Positions 3,627 to 7,854 of a stretch of 10,987 nt of DNA are shown piece by piece. A program made the translations under genes and the position numbers. How positions within the stretch are numbered: the stretch's first letter is position 1; each line of letters opens with the position of its first letter. The stretch lies in the NCBI GenBank assembly GCA_030691435.1, contig JAUYEK010000133.1:1-10987 (forward strand), given 5' to 3'. The notes below the pieces were generated by a model that was given only the letters and a program-made list of their open reading frames with translations, was not told the origin of the DNA and ran no database searches. The DNA is from Sulfuricella sp. (GTDB taxonomy: Bacteria; Pseudomonadota; Gammaproteobacteria; Burkholderiales; Sulfuricellaceae).

Positions 3627-4439
3627 ATGCCTCAACACTATGAAAATTTTCCGGTGGCATCCGTCCTGCTGCCAAAACGGCTGCGCCGCCCGGTTGGCGT
3701 CATTTACGCTTTCGCCCGTGCGGCCGACGATTTCGCCGATGAAGGGGATCTCGACGATGATGCGCGACTGGCTCTGCTCGGCGGTTTTCGCGCCGAACTG
3801 GACATGATCGGAGCCGGCCTGCCGCCAGCAACCCCGTTGTTCCATGAGCTCAAAGAAATTATCGGTCTCCATCGCCTGCCGTTGCAACCTTTCTACGACC
3901 TGCTCGACGCCTTTTCCCAGGATGTCATTAAAAAACGCTATGCTCACTTCGGCGAGGTGATGGATTACTGCCAGCGCTCCGCCAATCCGGTTGGCCTGCT
4001 GCTGCTCCATCTTTACGGCGCGGCGACGGAACGCAATATCAGCTACTCGAACGCCATCTGCTCCAGTCTGCAGCTGATCAACTTCCTCCAGGATATCGCC
4101 ATCGACTACCACGGCAAGAACAGGGTTTACCTGCCGCAGGATGAACTGGCAAAATACCGCATCACTGAAACGCAAATCGCGCGCGGGGATAACAGCGGCC
4201 TGTGGAAACCCTTCATGCAGTTCCAGATCGAGCGCGCGCGCAAGCTGCTACAGGCGGGTGCGCCGCTCGGCAGCGTGCTGCGCGGCAGGATCGGCCTGGA
4301 AATGCGCATGATCATCATGGGCGGCGAAACCATCCTGCGCAAGCTGCACAAATCCGGCGGCGATATCTTCAATGACCGTCCGCTGATCAAGCCTGGCGAC
4401 TGGATATTCATGCTTTACCGGGCTCTGCGAAAAAAATGA
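3627..4439 (+). CDS. hpnC: HpnC, squalene-pathway synthase (hydroxysqualene synthase)
   Basis: HpnC is a trans-isoprenyl synthase-like enzyme of the three-step bacterial squalene route. It converts the presqualene diphosphate made by HpnD into hydroxysqualene, which HpnE reduces. The 270-residue protein starts with the HpnC-type HYENFPVASVLLP segment. It has both aspartate-rich motifs: DDFAD at 34-38, and D156-x3-D160 in QDIAIDYHGKNRVYLP. The second motif distinguishes it from its paralogue HpnD, which has RDVGEDARRNRIYLP. It is probably cytosolic and membrane-associated, although no clear transmembrane segment is needed. The ribosome site is weak (CCTGAAAACCCT before the ATG). It is first in the hpnCDE-SDR set, and hpnD follows after a repeat-filled gap of 165 bases. 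A phytoene synthase is the main alternative, made unlikely by the hpnCDE order. Confidence 0.93.
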   Translation: MPQHYENFPVASVLLPKRLRRPVGVIYAFARAADDFADEGDLDDDARLALLGGFRAELDMIGAGLPPATPLFHELKEIIGLHRLPLQPFYDLLDAFSQDVIKKRYAHFGEVMDYCQRSANPVGLLLLHLYGAATERNISYSNAICSSLQLINFLQDIAIDYHGKNRVYLPQDELAKYRITETQIARGDNSGLWKPFMQFQIERARKLLQAGAPLGSVLRGRIGLEMRMIIMGGETILRKLHKSGGDIFNDRPLIKPGDWIFMLYRALRKK

Positions 4440-4604: not shown

Positions 4605-5453
4605 ATGAAAGAACACGCCTTGACACCTGACCAATACTGCCAGGAACGGGCCGCAAAAAGCGGCTCCAGCTTCTACTACAGCTTCCTTTTCCTGCCGCCG
4701 CTCAAGCGTCGGGCGATCACCGCCCTGTATGCCTTTTGCCGCGAAGTGGACGATGTCGCCGACGAATGCCACGATATCGCCATCGCCCGCGCCAAGCTCG
4801 CCTGGTGGCGCAATGAAGTCTCCAATATCTTCGCCGGCCACCCAGAGCACCCCGTGGGGCAGGCCCTGGCGCCGCTGGTTCGGGAATTCGGCCTGCCCGC
4901 CTCGGAGTTCGATGAAATCATAACCGGCATGGAAATGGATCTGACCCACAACCGCTATGCCGATTTCGACCAGCTCCAGCTCTACTGCCACCGCGTGGCG
5001 GGCGTGGTGGGGCTGCTTTCCGCCCGCATTTTCGGTTACCGGGATGCGCGCACTGAAGCCTACGCCCACGACCTCGGACTGGCTTTCCAGCTCACCAACA
5101 TCATCCGCGATGTCGGCGAAGATGCCCGACGCAACCGCATCTACCTGCCGCTAAATGAGCTGACCCGGTTCGGCGTCAGCGAAGCCGACATTCTGCATGG
5201 CCGGGAAACCGGGAATTTCAGCCAGCTGATGGCGTTCCAGGGCGAACGGGCAAACCAATACTACACCCAGGCGTTTGCCGAGTTACCTGCGGCGGACCGC
5301 AAGAACCAGCGCACCGGCCTGATCATGGCGGCGATTTACCATGCCATACTGGACGAAGTCAGGCAAGACGGCTACCACGTCCTGAATCAGCGCATCTCGC
5401 TGACGCCACTGCGCAAACTGTGGATAGCGTTCAAGACCTGGCTCAAGGAATGA
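4605..5453 (+). CDS. hpnD: HpnD, presqualene diphosphate synthase
   Basis: HpnD condenses two farnesyl diphosphates head to head into presqualene diphosphate, the first committed step to squalene. The 282-residue protein has the conserved start region (TPDQYCQERAAKSGSSFYYS), the first aspartate motif DDVAD (49-53) in ALYAFCREVDDVADEC, and the second motif D169-x3-D173 in NIIRDVGEDARRNRIYLP. The length is normal. The ATG at 4605 follows CCTAGG directly, which is too close for a classic ribosome site. An in-frame TTG at 4620 would give the family-like start M-T-P-D-Q-Y-C, so the true start is uncertain by five residues. The upstream gap is occupied by a repeat, and another mobile repeat begins one base after the stop codon. 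Phytoene synthase is the only realistic alternative. Confidence 0.95.
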   Translation: MKEHALTPDQYCQERAAKSGSSFYYSFLFLPPLKRRAITALYAFCREVDDVADECHDIAIARAKLAWWRNEVSNIFAGHPEHPVGQALAPLVREFGLPASEFDEIITGMEMDLTHNRYADFDQLQLYCHRVAGVVGLLSARIFGYRDARTEAYAHDLGLAFQLTNIIRDVGEDARRNRIYLPLNELTRFGVSEADILHGRETGNFSQLMAFQGERANQYYTQAFAELPAADRKNQRTGLIMAAIYHAILDEVRQDGYHVLNQRISLTPLRKLWIAFKTWLKE

Positions 5454-5582
5454 ACCCGGATTATCCGTTAGAGCCCAAACACCGCTGTGGGAGCGGCGCC
5501 CTCGCCGCGATTTGCGTCCGCATTCGCGCCGGGGGCGGCGCTCCTACATGCATGCGCATTCCAATGGACACACCCAGATGAA
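5450..5582. mobile_element. REPIN-like MITE copy with ATGAA target duplication, between hpnD and hpnE
   Basis: The element body is 5455-5577 (123 bp). It is flanked exactly by ATGAA on the left (5450-5454) and ATGAA on the right (5578-5582). Its left end CCCGGATTATCCGTTAGA resembles the intact left end of the copy at 7729. Its right end TCCAATGGACACACCCAG keeps the inner 11 bases of the terminal repeat. Inside are two inverted REP-like hairpins: GCGGCG-CCCT-CGCCGC on the left arm, and GCGCCG-GGGG-CGGCGC on the right. The left copy of the duplication contains the hpnD stop (TGA 5451-5453). The right copy is the hpnE start (ATG 5578). No transposase is encoded, so movement would need one from elsewhere. 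Confidence 0.85.
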
Positions 5583-6984
5583 AGTCGCGATCATCGGCGC
5601 CGGCTATGCCGGCCTGGCGGCGGCAGTGGAGCTGGCCGCGCAGGGGATATCCGTTACCGTCTTCGAGTCCGCCAGGCAGTTGGGTGGGCGTGCGCGACGG
5701 GTGGATTACCGCGGCATGGCACTGGATAATGGGCAGCACATATTACTCGGCGTCTACCGCGAAACCCTGCGCCTGATGCGCATGACCGGTGCCGATCCGG
5801 CGACGCTGCTGCTGCGGCTACCCCTGCAACTGGTCATTCCAGGCCGCTTCAGCCTGCAAGCGGCGCCGCTGCCAGCCCCGCTACACCTGGCGCTAGCCCT
5901 GCTCACGGCGCGCGGCCTGACTTGGGGCGAACGCCTCTCCGCCGTGCGCTTCATGAGCGCAATGCGTCGCCGGAATTTCCGAATCGGCGGGCATGGCAGG
6001 GATGCCGCCCCTAATGATGAAACCTGTCATGCCCGCCCCCCTCTCCCCAACCCTCTCCCGCGAGCGGGCGAGGGGGCAAACGAATCGCTGCGCGAATTTT
6101 ATATTAACGACGACATCGGCGCCGGCAAGATGCTGACGATGCATGGCCAAACCGGCAATCTGCGCCGCTATTTATGGGAGCCGCTCTGCATCGCCGCGCT
6201 CAACACCCCTCTCGATACCGCGTCGGCCCAAGTATTCCTCAACGTCCTGCGCGATAGCCTGGCCGGCAGCCGGGCAGACAGCGACATGCTGCTGCCGCTG
6301 GCAAACCTGACGCATCTCTTCCCGGAACACGCAGCCGCATTCCTCGAGAGCCATGGCGGCAAAATCATCCATTCCCAAACAGTGCTTGCGGTCAAAGCCG
6401 AGGCTGCCGGCTTCTCCCTCGAAATGCGACCGGGGCCGGAAAAGTTCGACCAGGTCATTTGCGCGGTGCCGCCGCAGCGCCTGGCCGCGCTTACCGTCGA
6501 CCTGCCTGAACTGGCGGAAGCCAGGGCACTGGTTGACCGCTTCAGTTACCAGCCGATCTACAGCGTATTCCTGCAATATCCCGCTGCAACCAGCCTGCCC
6601 CGGCCCATGATCGGCCTGTACGGTGGCGTCACTCAATGGGTGTTCGACCGCGGCCAGATCAACCACGAAGCCGGTCTGCTGTGTGCTGTAATCAGCGCGG
6701 AAGGACCGCACCAGACACTGGATCACGACGAACTGGCACAGCGGGTGCATGACGAACTACTCGCGATCCTTCCCGACCTGCCGCAACCGCTGTGGCACAA
6801 GGTGATTGCGGAAAAGCGCGCCACCTTTACCTGTAGCCCAGGTCTGGAGCGCCCCGGCCAAGCCACGCCGCTGCCGAATTTCTACCTCGCCGGCGACTAC
6901 ACCGCCGGCGATTACCCCGCCACTCTCGAAAGCGCGGTACGAAGTGGGGTAAAATGCGCGCAACTTATTCTGGAATCGCCATGA
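5578..6984 (+). CDS. hpnE: HpnE, hydroxysqualene dehydroxylase, with an internal repeat-encoded insertion
   Basis: HpnE is an FAD-dependent amine-oxidase-fold enzyme that reduces hydroxysqualene to squalene. The N-terminal dinucleotide-binding motif is MKVAIIGAGYAGLAAAVEL (GAGYAG, 7-12), followed by LGGRARRV. The core has HGQTGNLRRYLWEPLCIAAL and the C-terminal FAD contact is NFYLAGDYTAGDYPATLES. I place the start at the ATG at 5578. In-frame codons upstream (ATG 5548, TTG 5512) would translate the mobile repeat and add residues unlike the family. The protein is 468 residues, somewhat long. About 40 of these (roughly 135-174, including RPPLPNPLPRAGEGA) come from a dispersed repeat, and flanking motifs stay in frame. 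No ribosome site precedes the ATG. The stop overlaps the SDR start (ATGA at 6981-6984). Confidence 0.93.
   Translation: MKVAIIGAGYAGLAAAVELAAQGISVTVFESARQLGGRARRVDYRGMALDNGQHILLGVYRETLRLMRMTGADPATLLLRLPLQLVIPGRFSLQAAPLPAPLHLALALLTARGLTWGERLSAVRFMSAMRRRNFRIGGHGRDAAPNDETCHARPPLPNPLPRAGEGANESLREFYINDDIGAGKMLTMHGQTGNLRRYLWEPLCIAALNTPLDTASAQVFLNVLRDSLAGSRADSDMLLPLANLTHLFPEHAAAFLESHGGKIIHSQTVLAVKAEAAGFSLEMRPGPEKFDQVICAVPPQRLAALTVDLPELAEARALVDRFSYQPIYSVFLQYPAATSLPRPMIGLYGGVTQWVFDRGQINHEAGLLCAVISAEGPHQTLDHDELAQRVHDELLAILPDLPQPLWHKVIAEKRATFTCSPGLERPGQATPLPNFYLAGDYTAGDYPATLESAVRSGVKCAQLILESP
5980..6099. repeat. Dispersed repeat inserted in frame inside hpnE
   Basis: The segment contains a 15 bp near-perfect inverted repeat (5986-6000 GGCGGGCATGGCAGG with 6023-6037, one mismatch). 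A second hairpin, CCCTCTCCCGC/GCGGGCGAGGG (6051-6061 with 6064-6074), has one mismatch. The 22 bases at 6039-6060 are identical in reverse complement to 43-64. Translated, it gives the PLPNPLPRAGEGA peptide commonly produced by this repeat type. Candidate flanking direct repeats are GAATTT (5973-5978 and 6094-6099) and CGAATCG (5980-5986 and 6081-6087). The exact boundaries are uncertain. Confidence 0.8.
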
Positions 6985-7727
6985 AAAACTACCAGGCACC
7001 GCAAGATATGCTGAAGGGCCGCGTCATTCTCATCACAGGCGCGGGCCAAGGCATCGGCAAAACCGCAGCTTTGACCTTCGCCGCCCACGGCGCCACGGTC
7101 ATCCTGCATGGCCGTTCGGTAAAAAAACTGGAAGCGGTATACGATGAAATCGTGACGGCAGGCCACCCACAGCCGGCGATTTTCCCGCTTGACCTGAACA
7201 GGGCTGAAGACAAGGATTTCGCCGCAATGGCTGACGGCATCGGCGGACAGCTCGGACGGCTCGACGGCATACTGCACAACGCTGCCAAGCTTGACCGTCC
7301 GCAGCCGCTGGAAGACCAAACCCTGGCGCAGTGGCTGCCACTGTTGCGCGTCAATCTGGCCGCGCCCTTCGCTCTCACCCGCGCCTGCCTGCCGCTGCTG
7401 AAAGCTTCACCGGATGCATCCATCCTGATGACCTCGGAAACCCACGGCCACACTCCAACGGCCTTCTGGGGCGGCTTTGCCGTCGCCAAGAACGGCGTGG
7501 AAACGCTGGTGAAAATCTGGTCACAGGAACTGGAGGTCTACCCCACGCTACGCATCAATGCAGTGGTACCCGGCCCGGTGCAGTCGCCACAGCGTATCCG
7601 CACCTATCCTGGCGAGAGCAAGAATAGCCTGCCCACGCCTGAAACACTGATGCCGCTCTACCTCTATCTGATGGGGCCGGACAGCCAAGGGACGAGCGGC
7701 CAGATTATCGAGGCGAACCGGGGCTAA
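6981..7727 (+). CDS. YciK-like short-chain dehydrogenase/reductase with altered catalytic residues
   Basis: This is a 248-residue Rossmann-fold SDR resembling E. coli YciK, whose substrate is unknown. The cofactor site TGAGQGIGKTAAL follows the start. LDGILHNAAKL is the NNAG-like motif (HNAA), and INAVVPGPVQSP is the post-catalytic motif. The usual YxxxK is FxxxK here (Phe166-Ala-Val-Ala-Lys170 in WGGFAVAKNG). The residue 13 positions before it, normally the catalytic Ser, is Glu153 (in MTSETHG). Lys170 is kept. The protein may therefore bind NAD(P) without classic oxidoreductase chemistry, or use other residues. The start ATG overlaps the hpnE stop by four bases (ATGA), which indicates translational coupling. 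I prefer it to a start 27 bases upstream inside hpnE. A role in isoprenoid or hopanoid metabolism is only inference from position. Confidence 0.88.
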   Translation: MKNYQAPQDMLKGRVILITGAGQGIGKTAALTFAAHGATVILHGRSVKKLEAVYDEIVTAGHPQPAIFPLDLNRAEDKDFAAMADGIGGQLGRLDGILHNAAKLDRPQPLEDQTLAQWLPLLRVNLAAPFALTRACLPLLKASPDASILMTSETHGHTPTAFWGGFAVAKNGVETLVKIWSQELEVYPTLRINAVVPGPVQSPQRIRTYPGESKNSLPTPETLMPLYLYLMGPDSQGTSGQIIEANRG

Positions 7728-7854
7728 TCCCAGATTGTCCATTGGAGCCAAGACACCGCTGTGGGAGCGGCGCCCTCGCCGCGATTTGGCCGCATTCGCG
7801 CCGGGGGCGGCGCTCCTACAGGTACGAGCATTCCAATGGACAATCTGGGCTAAT
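7724..7854. mobile_element. Intact REPIN-like MITE with perfect 18 bp ends and CTAAT target duplication
   Basis: The body is 7729-7849 (121 bp). The left end CCCAGATTGTCCATTGGA (7729-7746) is the exact reverse complement of the right end TCCAATGGACAATCTGGG (7832-7849). Directly outside lies CTAAT on both sides (7724-7728 and 7850-7854). The core has two REP-like hairpins in inverted orientation, 7767-7782 (GCGGCG/CGCCGC, loop CCCT) and 7798-7813 (GCGCCG/CGGCGC, loop GGGG), so the whole element can also fold into one long imperfect hairpin. It sits between two converging genes and could act as a bidirectional transcript end. It has no coding capacity. Confidence 0.9.

Follow-up and report, generated by a model that had tools for sequence, protein, structure and literature searches.

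The hpnD and hpnE genes of a Sulfuricella species are separated by a 123-bp element that resembles a miniature inverted-repeat transposable element (MITE) and that has inserted into an ancestral four-base overlap, ATGA, between the hpnD stop codon and the hpnE start codon. In the sequence analyzed (10,987 nucleotides of contig JAUYEK010000133.1, referred to here as the window), an open reading frame (ORF) of 43 codons now runs through the element from one ATGA to another. Copies of the same element family recur at stop/start overlaps in two genera, and an intact frame of this kind is found there in excess. We consider it probable, judging from the sequences, that the coupling of hpnD and hpnE is relayed through the element and not lost, and we infer that ribosomes use this relay and that selection has retained it.

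The hpnD-hpnE junction

The two genes lie on the forward strand. hpnD (presqualene diphosphate synthase, 4605..5453) ends ...GAA TGA, with its stop at 5451-5453, and hpnE (hydroxysqualene dehydroxylase) occupies 5578..6984. Both exceed the cut-offs of their families (TIGR03465, 398.9 bits against 278.6, and TIGR03467, 457.4 bits against 283.05), and the HpnE N-terminus aligns with those of four relatives. As a preliminary description of the window had noted, copies of ATGAA flank the element, which lies in the forward orientation at 5455..5577. Both the hpnD stop and the ancestral hpnE ATG lie in the left copy (5450..5454); the right copy (5578..5582) is the present hpnE start, and the ends of both proteins were left intact, as had also been claimed. 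The left terminal inverted repeat (TIR; 5455..5472) is the start of the family consensus, CCCAGATTATCCATTAGA. The right one (5560..5577) has diverged over its last 7 bp, which read CACCCAG and do not match the family end ATCYGGG, and the right boundary is therefore placed by the element's 123-bp length, by the duplication and by the empty sites in relatives. Within the element, an inverted pair resembling repetitive extragenic palindromic (REP) sequences (5484..5551) folds into a single long hairpin in the minimum free energy (MFE) structure. The strong hairpin described previously is borne out by the MFE of 5450-5590 (-65.4 kcal/mol, z -4.35). It is also correct that no good Shine-Dalgarno sequence precedes hpnE (duplex -3.0), though the values are -1.8 for hpnD and -3.3 for the SDR-family gene that follows hpnE.

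The preliminary description took the junction to be a 124-base spacer lacking translation signals, and this was not supported. The ATG of the left duplication (5450) opens a mini-ORF of 43 codons (5450..5581, forward strand) that shares an ATGA with the hpnD stop, spans the hairpin and ends at a TGA (5579-5581) sharing a second ATGA with the hpnE start. The order is thus hpnD-ATGA-mini-ORF-ATGA-hpnE, with -4 junctions at both ends. This frame follows from the ATGAA duplication, an element length that is a multiple of three and the absence of stops in the frame, and, since the hairpin lies within the mini-ORF, there is no need to suppose that the spacer goes untranslated. In the mechanism we propose, a short TIR element entered the ATGA and duplicated ATGAA, so that the left copy kept the hpnD stop and the old start codon and the right copy became the new hpnE start. 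On restarting at the left ATG, a ribosome would read 43 codons across the whole element and its hairpin before stopping at the TGA of the right ATGA, where it could begin again on hpnE. A pair of successive restarts, both imperfect, might reduce HpnE to some extent, and a modest change in its supply is possible.

Published work bears on this mechanism; here and below, statements attributed to it refer to the available portions of the cited texts. The 4-nt stop/start overlap is the commonest spacing of neighboring genes across 1,695 surveyed species (PMC10666635), and coupling at such overlaps is thought to depend on near-zero spacing. In two E. coli gene pairs a spacing of 38 nt cut reinitiation by 80-90%, and in a third pair reinitiation was abolished; no more than the final 15 nt of the upstream gene is needed for it (PMC10666635). 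Since reinitiation is reported to be sensitive to spacing, an untranslated spacer of 124 nt should uncouple hpnE, whereas a translated relay would give -4 at both ends.

Comparison with relatives identified the state of the junction before insertion. Sulfuricella sp. T08 is among the closest named relatives by HpnD (92% identity). Seven of nine relatives in the genus show the empty ATGA overlap, in agreement with the insertion proposed earlier: the four closest (L049-L052, 92-93% HpnD identity) and three at 80-83% (L053, L056, L057). An unrelated long spacer, the arrangement that the preliminary description had set against its proposal, is found in the other two (L054 and L055, both 82%), which carry other, unrelated inserts; the L055 spacer itself contains a relay ORF.

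Copies, ends and target of the element family

The window derives from a fragmented genome (453 contigs, 79% complete). In this genome we found at least 40 strong matches to the element (the best 40 of 119 candidates were scored), together with 13 weak matches on the opposite strand. Matches to the end patterns numbered 82 for the right end and 72 for the left, a few of them being the opposite end of a copy. A profile search in which both ends were paired and strands de-duplicated yielded 67 copies from the window and 76 fetched contigs of the same genome, and recovered the window copy with the diverged right end. Of these, 31 are 123 bp long, 14 are 202-207 bp, 3 are 259 bp and the remainder have other lengths. 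The 5-bp duplication is perfect in 36/67 and matches at four or more positions in 55/67 when each end may slide by up to 2 bp; in a subset of 41 copies, with no sliding, 30 are 123 bp long and 19 have a perfect duplication. By chance, 6.3% of left and right flanks paired across copies agree at all five positions. The ends read CCCRGATTRTCCATTRGA, the duplicated target has the consensus NTNAN, and a copy at 7729 shows an 18-bp perfect terminal inverted repeat. A short, multicopy element with TIRs and a fixed-length target duplication has the features by which MITEs are recognized. A protein search with the mini-peptide returned three related predicted proteins.

Variants of the element were also observed. 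Two long copies (L238:5549-5755 and L281:1120-1392) look like the 123-bp element enclosing a further repeat, and the forward frame is open in both. At loci L282, L283, L284, L290, L291 and L299 of G005/G009, inverted pairs of closely similar ends (CCCRGATTATCCATTRGG type) lie about 155 bp apart and perhaps represent a sister element. A 111-bp subfamily in G020, which belongs to a second genus (L371, L372, L373, L375-L378 and others), includes many equal-scoring copies and has apparently been amplified recently. One insertion at a gene start appears to be shared by G020 (L365:6222-6344) and G021 (L381:2325-2447); the two copies of the element show differences at 8 positions, and each has an intact relay ORF.

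IS1380 was considered as the mobilizing family because of what we took to be a resemblance to the ends of ISEcp1 and its 5-bp duplications, and it was not supported: the transposase domain PF13701 matched in 3 of 12 genomes, the source genome not among them, and the five PF13701 loci lacked element ends at up to 3 mismatches. No inverted pair of ends 300-4000 bp apart, other than known copies, was detected in the 117 sequences scanned for an autonomous partner, a scan that did not extend to other DDE families. PF01797, a family wider than RAYT, matched in 11 of 12 genomes, with one weak match in the source genome (24.5 bits against a cut-off of 23).

Recurrence at stop/start overlaps and its interpretation

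Eight of the 67 copies in the source genome split a stop/start overlap between two long ORFs, seven of them in the forward orientation; the other 59 lie elsewhere. The eight comprise hpnD-hpnE, the starts of metZ, cobS, uroD-like, TlpA-like and rfbC-like genes, and two others (gene names other than hpnD and hpnE were read from translations and not from family searches). Empty ATGA overlaps were found at other occupied junctions as well, in 7/11 relatives for metZ, 2/5 for cobS and 3/6 for the uroD-like gene, and an ancestral overlap is well supported at hpnD-hpnE and metZ and less so at cobS and the uroD-like gene. At the rfbC-like junction, G000 has a forward copy of 207 bp (L238) and G006 a reverse copy of 121 bp (L271), which are either two insertions or one that was later inverted.

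Overlaps of the ATGA type are occupied more often than comparable sites between genes: 7 of 45 carry a copy, compared with 45 of the 1647 WTNAW sites in intergenic DNA (odds 6.6, p=0.0003). L238, a TGATG overlap, was left out of the ATGA-type counts (6/16 and 7/45). The background relies on gene calls from a simple codon-score caller of our own, and because the contigs were chosen for holding copies the ratios are meaningful and the rates are not. No copies lie inside called genes, as against 4811 coding WTNAW sites; this was not used as evidence, since the genes were called with the elements in place and a copy that disrupts a gene might be scored as lying between genes. Mean GC of the flanks is 0.533 at overlaps (8 copies), 0.471 at stops (17) and 0.476 elsewhere (42), counts too small to show or exclude a preference for GC-rich flanks.

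The relay frame was evaluated over a pooled set of 136 copies: 67 from the source genome, 19 from other members of its genus and 50 from G020 and G021 in the second genus, copies in the relatives having been fetched in part. Five reverse copies at starts (two at overlaps and three at starts only) are left out of this test. The frame is open and in phase in all 11 forward copies at overlaps, compared with 61 of the 115 copies not at starts (p=0.0015). At any forward start it is intact in 15/16 (p=0.0012), a count in which L365 and L381, apparently one ancestral insertion in two species, both figure. Without the 111-bp copies, many of which are near-identical, the comparison becomes 10/10 with 50/104 (p=0.0011). 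Lengths that are multiples of three occur in 11/11 overlap copies and in 72/115 of the others (p=0.008), and copies at overlaps are oriented 11 forward to 2 reverse (p=0.022). Within the first genus the frame is present at 9/9 forward starts against 40/72 (p=0.008), and at 8/8 against 20/37 when only perfect duplications are counted (p=0.014).

Unrelated DNA has entered the same junctions. At the four junctions examined, eight relatives have an unrelated insert after the ATGA, and in five of them a mini-ORF from the left ATG runs as far as the next start codon and ends on it: L055 at hpnD-hpnE, L320 and L323 at cobS, and L328 and L331, which are homologous to each other, at the uroD-like gene. 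These relays are suggestive only, as a shuffle null with insert length fixed ranges from 0 to 0.75. The ATGAA at the start of cobS has been opened by different inserts in three other genomes (L320, L322, L323), and for this reason the junction looks like an insertion hotspot.

A number of observations weigh against a relay that is used and selected. A single ORF of this sort is unremarkable because the frame is open in 61 of the 115 copies not at starts, and the signal is carried by length phase and orientation. It weakens in narrower samples: for lengths of 119-127 nt in the first genus the comparison is 7/7 with 33/52 (p=0.055), and for G020 and G021 alone it is 3/3 with 21/43 at overlaps (p=0.13) and 6/7 at forward starts (p=0.08). 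The relay tests were, moreover, picked after the pattern had been seen. Among the 11 overlap relays, L281 has lost its left ATG; the sole failing forward start, L354, has a mini-ORF stop 5 nt into the gene. The reverse copies at overlaps make no exact relay, L206 stopping early and L271 stopping 6 nt before the ATG. L228, a reverse copy in which the upstream gene ends in one duplication and no long ORF follows the other (ACGAA), was classed as "other"; counting it as a reverse overlap gives an orientation of 11:3 and, calculated by hand, p of about 0.06. Three of the unrelated inserts (L315, L316, L322) do not relay, and a ninth, L054, lacks a restart codon. Restart could also be hindered by the hairpin, which follows the hpnD stop. 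Finally, sensitivity to spacing is disputed: one study, cited in a review (PMC12548453), saw by one measure no effect of spacing from -4 to +25 nt, a range far shorter than 124 nt.

The strongest competing explanation, which we regard as somewhat unlikely, is that the relay frame is an unselected by-product, translated or not. The element is GC-rich and the length seen most often is, by coincidence, divisible by three, and insertions at ATGA would survive simply because the duplication restores both codons. The open frame in about half of the copies away from starts is what this would predict, as are the survival of reverse insertions at overlaps and the similar identity to the consensus in the two groups (means 0.923, n=7, and 0.932, n=56). 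It does not readily account for the excess of intact frames and the 11:2 orientation at overlaps, or for the relays made there by unrelated inserts.

It is less likely again that coupling was broken, as the preliminary description held. On this account the hairpin would block restart, the mini-ORF would be hardly translated, hpnE would be translated independently and weakly, and the supply of HpnE would have fallen behind that of HpnC and HpnD. Coupling is lowered by predicted structure that closely follows a stop (PMC12548453), coupling is sensitive to spacing (PMC10666635), and the junction combines a strong hairpin with a weak Shine-Dalgarno sequence before hpnE. However, the mini-ORF is continuous with an ATGA at both ends, the same frame recurs in every forward overlap insertion, and hpnE is open over its full length, albeit with a 40-residue insert. 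That the element provides a promoter or a stability hairpin driving hpnE independently of coupling is highly improbable: REP-like hairpins can stabilize upstream RNA and one sigma-70-like match (0.1 expected) lies at 5565-5594, but it agrees at 9/12 positions, its spacer is 18 nt long and the second of its hexamers (5589-5594) is inside hpnE, which would leave no normal hpnE leader. No terminator-like sites were found in 5400-5640.

Related systems and neighboring features

A relay of coupling has a precedent in the mycobacterial interspersed repetitive units (MIRUs; Supply et al. 1997, cited in a 2025 review, PMC12548453). These are short, mobile-looking repeats that insert at start codons, with an inner ORF coupled at -4 nt, and the coupling probably limits the cost of insertion (PMC12548453); because the review describes MIRUs in this way, the principle of a coupling repeat is already in print. 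Judged by position, the element described here is similar: at the stop/start overlaps where it has inserted, a reading frame crosses it and meets the next gene at -4 nt. Compared with MIRUs as descriptions portray them, it differs in its 18-bp terminal inverted repeats, 5-bp duplication, REP-like hairpin and Sulfuricella-type host, and in lying mostly outside overlaps. MIRUs, to our knowledge, lack inverted repeats. The element looks like a separate, TIR-bearing version of a MIRU-type coupling repeat in a Sulfuricella-type bacterium. No description of a coupling relay by a TIR element was found in the literature searched, of which coverage was partial, and a 2024 review of MITEs (PMC10969869) makes no mention of MIRU, start codon, stop codon, coupling or overlap.

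The Correia/NEMIS, ERIC, YPAL and RPE MITEs (PMC2229807) are likewise about 100-200 bp long, with inverted repeats, hairpin RNA and open frames. Their ORFs are fused to host proteins, whereas the mini-ORF here is a frame of its own that terminates in an ATGA overlap. REPIN/REP elements mobilized by RAYT (PMC3116915) may share with the present element an inner inverted pair of REP-like arms (5484-5551), judged by eye to start GTGG/GTAG; it differs from them in having outer inverted repeats and a 5-bp duplication. Termination-reinitiation at ATGA/TGATG overlaps (PMC6728339, PMC10666635), which the proposed relay would require at either end of the mini-ORF, is described in the cited work for native gene pairs and not for insertion elements.

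More generally, we propose tentatively, at a confidence a little short of even, that this Sulfuricella-family TIR MITE lives partly by using stop/start overlaps as safe harbors. The NTNAN target would rebuild both codons, the stop-free forward frame with a length divisible by three would serve as a transferable relay, and selection would keep forward, in-phase insertions in operons; the element would then have converged with the mycobacterial MIRUs, and the rule would extend to unrelated inserts at these junctions. A stop/start overlap that can take up an element and stay coupled illustrates how a tight operon may acquire intergenic DNA and small ORFs, and suggests that some predicted small proteins between operon genes are relays and not functional peptides. 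The natural series of insertions of the same element, forward and reverse, in and out of phase, is suited to testing termination-reinitiation.

Upstream of hpnD lies hpnC (squalene synthase HpnC, 3627..4439, forward strand; NCBIfam TIGR03464, 323.5 bits against a cut-off of 250.45). The SDR-family gene, assigned from its ORF and a family search, occupies 6981..7727 on the same strand, and its start shares with the hpnE stop the ATGA overlap (6981-6984) described previously. A second copy of the element (7729..7849, forward strand, 121 bp), recovered by the paired-copy search, has its duplication CTAAT (7724-7728 and 7850-7854) on the SDR stop codon and adjoins the opposing stop of an FHA gene. 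In HpnE of this genome there is an in-frame insert of 40 residues (IGGHGRDAAPNDETCHARPPLPNPLPRAGEGANESLREFY; 5983-6102) that is missing from the four aligned relatives. Within it, a second, palindromic repeat at 6039-6060, with an inverted match at 43-64, is reminiscent of Rickettsia palindromic elements. At positions 1-141 of the window lies the right part of a third copy of the element, apparently of a long form that this palindromic repeat splits and the contig end truncates.

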